Source: Owenia fusiformis
Lineage: Eukaryota > Annelida > Polychaeta > Sabellida > Oweniidae
Length of the DNA: 64,000 nt
Assembly (NCBI GenBank): GCA_903813345.2
Contig: CAIIXF020000009.1
Span: 13,218,347-13,282,346, forward strand
Direction of reading: 5' to 3'
Position numbers and translations under genes: made by a program. This document shows positions 5,250-19,597 of the stretch, piece after piece. The notes under the pieces are model-generated. The model had not been told where the DNA came from. It did no database searches and was given only the letters and a program-made list of their open reading frames with translations. Within the stretch, counting starts at the first letter, position 1. Every line of letters begins with the position of its first letter.

Positions 5250-8200
5250 ATGGCTCTCAAAAGAATCAACAAGGTAAATATATCTTTTATTTAACTTCAT
5301 AGATCCATTTTGTACGTCTATTTCAGCCTACCACCAAAGATTCTACCGGTCTTCTGATTTTTTTTTCGAAAATTTTCTTCCTCATTTTTGATTTCCCGAA
5401 TCTGTAATAAATATGTCATCTCATTTGTGAGAGATCAATTTTTTGACAAGTCTAATGATAATCACGGACTTTTTGTTTTTCATATGCTTGTCACTCCAAA
5501 TGTAGATTTTCAAATACAGTTCTCAGAATACACAAAATTAGAGCTACAGGGAGTTTCCATTTGTCATTTTGAAGTTTTGTTTTAGCCTAGGCCAATTGTG
5601 GGTCGCTTATTGCTATGTGTGATAGGTGTAAGGTTTGCAAATGTCTTCTAAAGTTTATTGACTGAGTAATGATTAAAAATCCCCAACAAAATCTAAATGT
5701 GTCAGATTTTGATTATTTCCCCAATACATCAGTTATGAATCACTGTCAGTTGTTAATTTCTGCTAGAAGGGGATGTTTGGGAAATTGATAGGATGTACTT
5801 GACATATAAGCCTTCATATATGCAAAAAAACATTGTTTTGAAGTTGAAATCTCCAACAGACGAAATCTAATACAAGATGGCTGGCCCTGGAAATATGAAT
5901 TATCGGCAATTGCCAAAATAACCCCATGGAATAGAAGCCCCGTGACGTACTAACCCCGTACGTCGAAGTACGACGGATCTCCCCTATATATATACAAAAA
6001 AACGTTTCATTTGTGCTCACTAAACGATGCATAAAGCAAGGTTTATGACTTAGGTTGAAGACTTGATTTTCCAAGTCTGTTGCCAAAAGCGAAAAATGGC
6101 TGTCATTGGCAGCTGTAGGTTTCAAACATGTTGTAAAATTTTCACATTTTGATAAATATGATATATTCGGGCCAAGACCAGTTATCGGAAGTGATAAGTC
6201 AGGTTCAAATGTTGATACCCGGATGAAGGTCCTCGTACCTGGAAGTAAAAATCAATGGGAGAACATGTAACCTTTGTCATATTTTTCATTGAAAATAGGA
6301 ATTGTGATGAGTTAACTTCCATAGAGTCTTGTAAGTTGTGAAGTTTCACGACCGGTCTGAGCCCTATACAGTGCTACCAACACTCCCCTCTCTATATCCT
6401 TCTAATTCCTTTATTATGTGAACCATACCAATTTTTTCAGCTGATACAAGTTATATATATTTGACTTGTGTGTGATTGTATTATTGAGTCATTTTCAGAT
6501 GCCATATCATTTATATCATACTTATATTCTAAATGTATATATTATTTCTGGATGTGTAATAGGTGGTAAGAAACTATTTTGTTGACTAAATAGTGAATAA
6601 TCCAGTGAACCCTCTGTAAATGAAATTAGGTGCATGGGTTTTGTTTTATCTTAACATATTGAATTTTTTTAATGATAAGTTGATAACACTCTTCAACATA
6701 TGTATTTGTCATGAATAAGTGGTGGAAATTCAGATAAATATGAATGGTACCTGCAGTGCATCCTGTAGCTGCATGCTATCTGGTCAAAGCCGAACACTGA
6801 CTATTTAAAGAGCTAGTAACATTGACTTACAATCTGTTCACTATCGGCTACCGGTAGCCGATAGTATCTTTAAAACTTCATTTATTTACTTTTAAGAATC
6901 AAATTTTTTATTTTAAGATCATAATTGGCATGTTAACATGTTACTGTACTTCTACTTAATTTGGCGGATGCGCAAAAGTCCACCAAAATAAGTAGCCGCC
7001 AAATTCAGCATTTCATATAGTAAATTGTGGTATGTACATTTCAATATGTAAGACCACCTAATTAAGTAGCCGTCAAATGTTAAAGAGGCTCTATGCCATA
7101 GGATAGCACAATCAAGACCCCTCTTGACTTTTTTGCATATTGAGTTTCACCACATATATACCCATCTACTTACAAAAGTTTATTATCATAAACCTGATTG
7201 GCTGCCTGGTTCAAGGGGCTTGTGTGACTCAATGGGGATTCCCCTCGCTAGCCGAGGAATCGATAAATAAGAAAAAGTATGAATGATAAAGTACCATGCA
7301 CCTTTGTTATTTACAGAAAGTATGATTGAACAATTTTTATTGATATATTTTGTTATTATTTTTATTTAATTCTTGTATAACAAAGGAGGGATTAGGTTAT
7401 TGTTTGTAACATAACAAATATTGACATCTTATATAATATTGCACAACATTAATTGACACTATATTTTGATTAACATCTGATGATTCCTTTCTATGAATCA
7501 CTCTATTATATTTGTAATAGGGATATATTATTCATTGAGCATTTTGTCATCAATGTTTTTGTTCTGATTTGTCTCATTTTTATTGACCAATAACATGAAA
7601 CTAATAGATAAATTGAGATAAGAGCATATAGGGAAAGTTTTGCATAATTCTATAACAGTGTTCTCCATGAGGCAGTATTGAATGTTGAAATAACCACATT
7701 ACAAGTTGCACCACTCATGTTTTATTTGCACCATCCACGGTTATAGAAATCATCATTATTAATGGGAACTGGAACCTCTAATTTTACCACTCTCTTGAAA
7801 TGGTAGCACTACTCGCAAGTTTTGATCAACATTTTTCATTGATTATTTTGAAAATTCAAGAACCCTGTCTGATTATTGAAAACCACAAATCTTGTGAATC
7901 ATTCCATGTGTTCACTCATTTTCTCTTTGTTTTTTGGAAGATCCTGAATTCAGAATTTTAGATGGCAGTTTGTTTTGTTTCACTTTCAACTAAACAAGGT
8001 ATGTTGACTTTCCAAAATAAACCAGCTAAGAGGGATATGTTACGGTGTTTTACCTATATCCTTCAAAATGCTCTTGCCAAATGATTTGTACGTTATACAT
8101 TATGGTATCCCATTTTGATGAAATCTGAATCAAATATTTTATCAGTTTTGTATTAATCAGTGTGTATTTTATAAGTTTTGATATGTTTAACTAAAAGGAT

Positions 8201-16617: not shown

Positions 16618-19597
16618 GAACTACAAGATCTTGGAAGGGACCCCCCAGCACAATGTTCAGCAGGTCCAATAGATGATAAGGACAGTAAGTAATAAAGAAC
16701 TCTTGAAATACAATGTTTTTTCTCAAATGCATTGAAAACTGTGAGCTTTTGACAAACACATGTCCTACTGTGTAAGAGAAGTCTGTTGGTTTATGAGATT
16801 AAAACTATTGTACCACTATCATGTACAATTTTACTGTTTACGTAAATGCAAGTGTACAATTTTACTGTCTACTTTCATGAAGGTGTACAGCTTTACTGCA
16901 CTTATTAAGACATGCGTAATAATATTAGCAGAAATACATCAGTACTGAACAATAGGCCTATATTGAAAAAAGTTAGAAATATCACTGAATATGGGGATGG
17001 CAATGCTTGGTACATGAAATGGTGGGATGCCTTATTTCAGTTTTCATAGTACATATTTTTTATATTATAAGGCTACTTCAAAGATTAATATCATTTAAAA
17101 AGTTAATTAATATCATCTTGGATTACCAAGGTATAAAGTTGATTGAAAATCAAACTTGTAAGCGAGTAATGAGTATGGGTCTTACATAGTAGGATAATAT
17201 GACCTGACTATGATTCTATTCTTATTTCAGTGTTCAAGTGGCAAGCAACAATAATGGGTCCAGTAAGTAAAATAATTTTCTATGTTAGTAAAAATACTGT
17301 ACTCCCACTAATATTTGATGCTATTATATTTCGCGTTTTTGGCATTTTGAAATTCCGTGGCTATTATATTTCGCTAATTTTCATTTTTTTGATATTTCGC
17401 GCCTATTAATTTTCACGGATTTGTCATACGAGATCACTCTTTCGACTTCGATATCAGCCATGGTTGTTCCTTCGACAGATGATTTTGGCTTCTTATTAAG
17501 CCTTTTCGTTAGAAATTCTGAATGTTCATTTTAATACAGTAATAAAGATCTTTCTTCTAATTTCTCTTTTTCAAAACTCCAAAGGTCACATTTTTACCTA
17601 TTATCACCCAGCACTGAACGAAAATATTGTCAACATTGAATTTCCTTGGAATTTGTGACTACAAAATTTTGAAAATTAGAACTGTAGGAATTTTGCAGCT
17701 ATTATATATCGCGGATTTTCCAAAACTTGCGAAAAGCATGAAATATAGTAGCGCGCTAAAATTACCAGGAGTACAGTAGTTGATAACCAGTTTATGAGTG
17801 AATACATGAACTTCATAATCCTTAATAATATTTAAATTTGACTCTGAGAAATGATTAATGTTCAATTCAATTATTTTTAGGGTGATAGTCCATATCAAGG
17901 AGGTGTGTTCTTCCTCACTATACAATTTCCACCAGACTACCCCTTCAAGCCTCCCAAGGTGAGTCCAAGCCATATTGGCATTATTATGTGTTTTAAATCG
18001 AATTGTCTATGTTTTGAAATTAAAATAGAGCATTTTCTTAACTCGGAGAGATACTGTGTAGACCCATGCTCTTGGGAGATGATGATAGTATAAACACCGA
18101 AATGATGTCACCTGTTAGAAATCTTTATACAACAGCGGATTATATAGAAATGGACTGTAACCCAGATTTATTGGTTTTTAAAAAAAAAAATTTGATATCA
18201 CTTTTTATGCTGAGCATGGCAGTTTCACATGATTTTTGATTTATTTTCCAGCTTACATTTGTTACAAGAATATATCACCCAAATATAAACAGCAATGGCA
18301 GTATTTGTTTGGACATCCTTAGATCACAATGGTCACCAGCCTTAACTATATCTAAGGGTAAGTAAAGCCTCAGTCTCATTTACTCTATGCAGGCTGTACC
18401 TTCACAAAATTGATATAGAAAATCTGTATCATAATCCCTATATTTAATGGGCATATTTCTCTCTATATTGGGAAGCTATGGCCACCATACGGTTGTCATA
18501 GATCAAATGTGATTAAGGTGTGAGATGAGGAAGAAAAAATATTTCATATCTGTTCATCTTTAAGTAATTAAAATCATTTGCAGTGTAACAAGTTTTCACC
18601 ATAGAGAATGAAATATTTGTTTTGTCAATCACTTCTGTATTCACCACTCTCTGATTGGTCAAGTCTGATAAGAAAAAGCAAGATCTATTAATGTTACCAA
18701 CAAATGATTTTCTCTCAAAAATACCACAGCACAGAATATACCACTCTATTGAATCATAGGTTGTACTTTTTCAAAATTAGCAATAGACATATTGCTACCT
18801 GTACAACCAATGACATCATCAATCTAGCCAATTTATTATAATTTCTCTGATCGATCAAAAGATGGCACGATTTATGGGAAACGCCTATTGCAATGCTTTT
18901 CAGGCATGCATTCACAGCAATTTTCCCAAGTTCTTACTAGCCTACTATTTAAACTTAAAACTACATAACAGGAGGCAGCTTATCATGGTCCATATTTTAT
19001 TATTCCAACTTCTTTATCCAGTGTAGGCTAAATAAAAAGATTAGAAAAATAATGAATCCAGGTAAAACCAACATGCGGAGGATATTGCGGGAAACGGAGG
19101 ATATTGTGACGATATCCTCCGCTTGTTAATTTTTTGCCAAAATGACTCTATATTTGGCATGAATTCATTTTGCAATGATATTATGCAATTAGTACACTCC
19201 TTGTAAGGGTAGGATAATAAGAACATCCTATGATTTTTTTCAGAATATCATTTTAATCTACTCGCTGAAATTGATATATGCACTTGTTTGCTTTGCTCTC
19301 TTGTGCAGATATCAATAGTACCTCGTAGATAAAAATGATATTCCTCAAAATCATAGAATATCCTATAATTATCCAATGTGTGACAAATAATAATTCCTAA
19401 TGTATTTCCATTGATATCCATATGCCATAAATCATGAGTCTTTATTTTGTTTTCCAGTGTTGCTATCCATCTGTTCTCTGCTTTGTGATCCAAATCCTGA
19501 CGACCCCCTCGTTCCAGAAATAGCTCGCATATTCAAAACAGATAGAACCAAGTACAATGACTTGGCAAAAGAATGGACTAAAAAGTATGCTATGTGA
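16618..19597 (+). CDS. UBE2D: UBE2D exon set b (exons 2-6, no first exon visible)
   Basis: Exons 16618-16684, 17231-17262, 17881-17958, 18252-18357 and 19458-19597 repeat the structure of set a with identical phases and GT..AG borders. Encoded parts include the HPN motif, the [12 protein letters not shown] active-site segment and the standard family C-terminus KKYAM. Exon 2b has one extra codon (PIDDKD), so the catalytic Cys would be residue 86. All frames are open. No MALKRI-type exon was found between 12200 and 16617, whereas the donor after MALKRINK at 5273 is in the right phase to join 16618. Set b is therefore either an alternative exon block of the same gene or a tandem gene whose first exon is missing or unrecognised. 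Introns show no obvious similarity to those of set a, so the duplication looks old. Confidence 0.88.
17295..17778. mobile_element. TACTGTAC-type inverted-repeat element in set b intron 3
   Basis: Ends TACTGTACTCCC and GGAGTACAGTA are inverted copies, and the body repeats TATTATATTTCGCG-like phrases. It is the same family as 22293-22853. Flanking TA would fit a Tc1/mariner-type target duplication, but TA is too short to prove it. Confidence 0.65.
19060..19390 (-). repeat. palindromic element, reverse-oriented partial copy
   Basis: Reverse-complement relative of 13985-14400: it shares the GCGGAGGATATTG-type segment, the ATTAGTACACTCCTTGTAAG junction and the hairpin with the ATATGCAC arms. It lies in set b intron 5, just before the last exon. 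Confidence 0.6.

Follow-up and report, generated by a model that had tools for sequence, protein, structure and literature searches.

Can one first exon serve two complete sets of downstream exons? In the 64,000-nucleotide stretch of the Owenia fusiformis genome analyzed here (the window; contig CAIIXF020000009.1, positions 13,218,347 to 13,282,346), a single coding first exon of a ubiquitin-conjugating enzyme (E2) of the UBE2D family faces two tandem blocks of downstream exons, termed a and b (Table 1). We propose that the locus is probably one UBE2D gene with tandemly duplicated downstream exons, in which exon 1 is spliced to either block a or block b, each with a separate poly(A) site. UBE2D is among the most conserved eukaryotic enzymes. 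If the proposal is true, a near-invariant hub enzyme would be varied by exon choice, with two catalytic bodies and three tails behind an eight-residue start.

Analysis of the spliced frames revealed that the internal borders are GT-AG in both blocks and that the phases are equal between corresponding exons. The spliced products comprise 148 residues for block a, 147 residues for a', the version ending in the second last exon a6', and 148 residues for block b, with 0 internal stops. Accordingly, the initial annotation was right that there are two full downstream sets with open frames and an intact active site, Cys85 being present in both, and that the donor of exon 1, of phase 0, suits either set. 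Blocks a and b are tandem homologous exons with the same phase, intact splice sites and intact stops. The acceptor of b2 has pyrimidines at 15 of 20 positions, and that of a2 at 13 of 20. The exons assigned to set a (9543-12199) were also found, but that range merges two alternative last exons, a6 and a6'. These lie only 39 nt apart and no donor follows a6, which is why we take their acceptors to be alternatives; if a6 is used, a6' would become part of the 3' untranslated region (UTR). A candidate poly(A) signal follows each block, although the AATAAA hexamer is frequent in this AT-rich DNA, with five in 12000-14000, one of them inside a6'.

Sequence matches in the PDB placed the products in the UBE2D family. 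Exon 1 joined to block a matches UBE2D3 and Caenorhabditis elegans UBC2 over residues 1-146 (E 3e-94), and exon 1 joined to block b gives a UBE2D match over residues 1-148 (E 1.1e-88). The HPN motif, the active-site Cys85 and the SPA motif are invariant across a, a' and b. The products are predicted UBE2D (UbcH5) E2s of ~147 residues, which consist of a UBC domain only and have UBE2D as the best match. Block a acquires the N-terminal MALKRI helix via exon 1; block b has it only if exon 1 joins b2. Identity to C. elegans UBC2 reaches 136/147 when the a body carries the b6 tail, 132/148 for a-a6 and 129/148 for b-b6, and the a body with b6 is identical to human UBE2D3 at 134 of 147 positions. 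Among the tails alone, b6 is the most canonical (40/46), compared to 36/47 for a6 and 35/46 for a6'. By these alignments, the hybrid a-b6 is the most canonical predicted product.

Exon 1 has no second copy in the genome by the pattern used. A search for MALKRIxK followed by GT gave one match in 498 Mb, at 5250, whereas the opposite strand and a reversed control gave 0 each, in agreement with the single MALKRI exon seen earlier. A stricter pattern demanding G at donor position +5 gave 0 matches; the donor of exon 1 is without this G. Scanning both strands of the window, which is free of N, for exon 1 with up to two mismatches yielded three matches against a chance expectation of 3.98; only the one at 5250 is exact and none of the three falls between the blocks. 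When the a protein was used as query, the genome showed 32 exon matches at E ≤0.001 (49 candidates scored), nine of them within this locus. Outside the locus, the best matches come from a single gene on contig C7, two exons of which are 60% and 64% identical to the a protein; we take this gene to be UBE2E-like. This is the sole UBE2D locus found in the 498-Mb genome, an absence elsewhere that is not absolute, as N-masked stretches lay outside the search.

Comparison of a with b over exons 2 to 6 gave a synonymous divergence (Ks) of 1.17, a nonsynonymous divergence (Ka) of 0.107 and a Ka/Ks of 0.091, from which both blocks are under purifying selection. We simulated unconstrained substitutions only, on a single branch, in 2000 runs. 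At a total Ks of 1.17, 0.5% of the runs remained stop-free, with a mean of 95 residue changes; at 0.68, the values were 2.3% and 71. The observed differences amount to 21 of 140 columns, one being a gap. The body of b differs from human UBE2D3 in 12 columns and from C. elegans UBC2 in 13, compared to 6 and 5 for the body of a; by this measure, block b evolved faster than a, yet remained constrained. The alternative raised in the initial annotation, that b is a headless tandem copy, would fit the want of a recognizable first exon of its own. In the form of a dying copy it is very unlikely and receives almost no weight from us, because purifying selection acts on block b (overall Ka/Ks 0.09), which has neither stop nor frameshift and keeps intact splice sites. 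It is also rather improbable that block b mainly provides b6 as a third last exon for the a body, with b2 to b5 little used. The canonical character of b6 and of the a body joined to it argues for such a role, but the frames and splice sites of b2 to b5 have been kept, with Ka/Ks values of 0.42, 0.10, 0.04 and 0.12 for exons 2, 3, 4 and 5, respectively; synonymous sites of exon 6 are saturated.

In the main rival explanation, block b forms a tandem gene in its own right. It would have a promoter and a first exon of its own, the latter unrelated in sequence and so short or so diverged that it escapes recognition. Tandem whole-gene duplication is a common origin of such pairs, and a possible precedent is human UBE2D3, in which one alternative first coding exon is unrelated in sequence to the usual one. 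An AATAAA after block b is consistent with a gene of its own, as are the alternative promoters of human UBE2D3, though the change there is described as confined to the 5' UTR (PMC6143958). The scans for such a start, sensitive only to E2-like exons and CpG-rich starts, argue against it. A scan for runs of 7-12 codons that open with ATG and have an E2-like end ahead of GT gave 0 hits in the inter-block stretch and 0 in 19598-30000; the same scan recovers exon 1 in 1-9542, and shuffled inter-block DNA is expected to give 0.27. Only two ATG-to-GTRAG candidates of phase 0 and 3-59 codons lie between the blocks, one inside a recent repeat, and by eye neither is E2-like. A blastn comparison detected no copy of exon 1 or of its upstream DNA in the inter-block stretch; every similarity listed fell within the repeat at 14925-16090. 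A 12-mer at 13457-13468, equal to the first 12 bases of a2 and inside a weak first-exon candidate, is probably due to chance (blastn E 0.08).

The CpG content bears on the same rival. Outside recent repeats, the observed/expected ratio (o/e) of CpG between the blocks is 0.23 (12200-13800), 0.22 (14361-14924) and 0.13 (16091-16617), with a 300-bp maximum of 0.54. By comparison, the ratio within intron 1 is 0.61 in the first part and 0.33 in 7001-9542; immediately upstream of exon 1 it is 0.90, and in 22000-24000 1.06. Two CpG-rich patches, at 14925-16090 (1.08) and 17301-17780 (1.42), are dispersed repeats, and the former is presumably too recent to have provided the ancestral start of block b, given how far b has diverged. 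Many invertebrates methylate transcribed bodies. The CpG-poor, intron-like character of the inter-block DNA outside the recent repeats hints at one transcription unit; provided that such methylation also occurs in this animal, blocks a and b might belong to a single transcribed domain. The lack of a CpG-rich stretch outside recent repeats also speaks against a promoter of b, on a weak control: a 300-bp window reaching 0.95 or more is present in the 1.5 kb upstream of 11 of the 12 housekeeping starts (exon 1, 2.07), but the control repeats were unmasked and several control matches do not start at residue 1, so that their real first exons may lie further upstream. Altogether, we consider a separate gene unlikely.

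Several points weigh against a common start for the two blocks. Left unmasked, b2 resembles the controls, its highest 300-bp window in the 1.5 kb upstream, located in the repeat, reaching 1.14; over the final 500 bp, the CpG o/e is 0.07 for b2, and 3 of the 12 controls also have 0.25 or less. Parts of 12200-14000 have weaker relatives elsewhere in the genome (67-78% over 120-290 bases), and "outside recent repeats" is therefore not equal to "unique". Exon 2, on its own, has the Ka/Ks of 0.42 given above. Exon 1 may perhaps be joined only to a2, with block b using a first exon unlike those of other UBE2Ds. Searches for further UBE2D relatives yielded no animal gene: viral contigs (50 + 40 stretches) held 0 relatives, and prokaryote genomes (134 stretches) held one, in a bacterial metagenome-assembled genome, with 67% identity; it is probably a eukaryotic contamination and was not used.

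A further start for block b is the in-frame ATG at 16567, from which 17 open codons lead through the acceptor into b2. Retention of the DNA before b2 would then yield an E2 whose N-terminus is different and hydrophobic. Ahead of b2, the frame stays open as far back as 16465, unlike that of a2, which has a stop directly before the exon. But the open run passes through a polypyrimidine tract that belongs to a good acceptor, and such a protein would be missing the first turn of the helix, with K4, R5 and K8. We take these residues to be E1/E3 contacts; they do not differ between the versions that begin with exon 1. We give this start little credence, and the open run is probably due to chance.

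We therefore return to exon-block choice from one start. The earlier idea of one promoter choosing an exon block is backed by the unique exon 1, the absence of an E2-like first exon between the blocks, the matching phases and, weakly, the CpG pattern, while the exon 1-b2 junction, its coupling to poly(A) choice, the hybrids and any functional difference between the versions are what we infer. Transcription would start upstream of exon 1. Because a2 is transcribed ~7 kb before b2, exon 1 would join a2 by default, and the transcript would end in a6 or a6' at the first poly(A) site. Transcription beyond this site, together with skipping of a2, would link exon 1 to b2, and the transcript would end at the second site, a choice that would resemble selection between terminal exon blocks in known genes. 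Since the phases agree, a-to-b hybrids would be in frame, and b6 may serve both blocks, especially as the tail of the a body. Seven in-frame proteins are possible: four by entry into b at exon 2, 3, 4 or 5, and three from the full a body ending in a6, a6' or b6. The earlier picture of two whole enzymes is partly supported; it overlooked the second last exon of a and the in-frame hybrids. More tentatively, the UBE2D family may here be folded into one gene, with up to seven full-length E2s (a-a6, a-a6', b-b6 and four hybrids) replacing the separate UBE2D1-4 genes of vertebrates.

The protein versions are identical at residues 1-25, 73-105 and 107-121. Changes between a and b lie at 26-32, 41, 46, 55, 58, 67-72 and in the tails. 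Compared to two references, the body residues private to b are 26-28, with one inserted residue, 32, 55, 58, 67, 68 and 70, and those private to a are 46 and 72. The differences thus fall in the α1-β1 loop, at scattered sites in the 30-72 range and in the final helices, with catalytic Cys85 in common. Of the differences expected earlier at the backside site and the C-terminus, those at the C-terminus were found, as the tails differ, whereas S22, which we take to be the center of the backside ubiquitin site, as well as Q20, Q34 and T36, are the same in both blocks. The three tails differ at 11 positions, nine of them within 129-148. In UBE2D3 of percomorph fishes, residues 128-147 are described as hypervariable, chiefly at the outward-facing side of helix 4 and in the turn of the helix-turn-helix (PMC9790923), which is the region where the three last exons differ most. 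If the versions are made, they would provide natural isoform sets with few differing surfaces, suited to probing the C-terminal helices and the α1-β1 loop of UBE2D.

At residues 127 and 139, the last exons a6, a6' and b6 all have F and K, in place of the Y and R of human UBE2D3 and C. elegans UBC2. The three therefore probably derive from one ancestral exon within this lineage, as judged from two references and for the last exons, not exons 2 to 5; their synonymous sites are saturated in all pairwise comparisons. Among codons for the same residue, those identical between a and b make up 38/48 in exons 2 and 5 (15/18 and 23/30), compared to 21/60 in exons 4 and 6 (10/22 and 11/38). The Fisher p of 6e-6 flatters this difference, because the exons were grouped after the per-exon Ks had been seen; exon 3 (4/7 identical codons) stands outside the grouping. 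Against the UBE2E-like gene, codon identity in exon 5 is 5/25 for a and 4/26 for b. Gene conversion or a constraint on the RNA sequence would explain the synonymous likeness of exons 2 and 5.

Alternative tandem terminal exons are already known; here the duplicated part comprises all but eight residues of the enzyme. In the oyster AOX gene, the last coding exon is reported to exist in tandem copies, between which alternative 3' splice sites decide; a transcript with the first copy also retains the second, behind a stop codon (PMC5589949). Its tandem last exons match a6 and a6', and the more conserved copy lies downstream, like b6; it differs in that a single exon is concerned and RNA evidence is given, whereas the present arrangement is known from DNA. 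Vertebrate GNAO is described as having two mutually exclusive terminal pairs of exons 7 and 8 (PMC5896119), likewise a locally duplicated terminal block used alternatively to give two proteins with a common start, but of two exons at the protein end compared to five of six coding exons here. In the Drosophila sulfotransferase gene pip, terminal exon clusters are duplicated and classed among UTR duplications by the source (PMC9013439); they also follow common upstream exons, but are more numerous and belong to a different kind of enzyme. Vertebrate UBE2D1-4 (UbcH5a-d) are of the same family and length, but are presented as drawing their diversity from separate genes rather than one locus (PMC9790923). 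The main text of that review contains neither "exon" nor "splic", and no report of a UBE2D with such an exon arrangement was found among the top-ranked literature matches, which mostly excluded subscription journals.

Table 1. Features of the UBE2D locus, in window positions.
Feature	Positions	Strand	Basis	Remarks
Exon 1, coding part	5250-5273	+	spliced-frame reconstruction	MALKRINK; phase-0 donor GTAAAT
a2	9543-9606	+	spliced-frame reconstruction	block a exon 2
a3	9953-9984	+	spliced-frame reconstruction	block a exon 3
a4	10730-10807	+	spliced-frame reconstruction	block a exon 4
a5	11026-11131	+	spliced-frame reconstruction	block a exon 5; HPN motif and active-site Cys85
a6	11878-12020	+	spliced-frame reconstruction	block a last exon; ends ...KYASG, stop TAA
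a6'	12060-12199	+		second alternative last exon of block a; ends ...KFAT, stop TGA
Inter-block stretch	12200-16617			between a6' and b2
AATAAA of block a	12410-12415	+		candidate poly(A) signal; first after a6' stop
Dispersed repeat	14925-16090			between blocks; at least 39 near-full-length copies elsewhere, 90-97% identity (best 40 of 4,685 candidates)
In-frame ATG and open codons	16567-16617	+		rival start; 17 open codons into b2 through acceptor; probably chance
b2	16618-16684	+		block b exon 2; exceeds a2 by one codon
b3	17231-17262	+		block b exon 3
b4	17881-17958	+		block b exon 4
b5	18252-18357	+		block b exon 5; HPN motif and active-site Cys
b6	19458-19597	+		block b last exon; ends ...KYAM, stop TGA; most canonical of three last exons
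AATAAA of block b	19883-19888	+		candidate poly(A) signal; first after b6

In addition to these features, a short dispersed repeat is present in opposite orientations between the blocks (13988-14260) and in the last intron of b (19095-19372), the two being 87% identical; there is another genomic copy.

Upstream, two exons of a putative CISD (CDGSH iron-sulfur) gene lie at ~1690-2442 on the minus strand, head to head with UBE2D. One exon has a MitoNEET_N match right at the cut-off (23 bits), and the other carries the CDGSH motif, by a pattern set by eye. A CISD gene, CISD1, lies near UBE2D1. CISD2 and UBE2D3 are both placed at human 4q24 (PMC6886870), and CISD and UBE2D may be an old gene pair with a common CpG-rich promoter region. 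No match to Rfam families was found in the window. Further downstream, an uninterrupted reading frame for a rhodopsin-type G-protein-coupled receptor is located at 51479-52576 on the minus strand (7tm_1, E 6.9e-19). A tandem array at 40013-40879 consists of 6.5 copies of a 132-bp unit with 96% matches, and its surroundings are very CpG-poor, with an o/e of 0.03 in 40001-41000.

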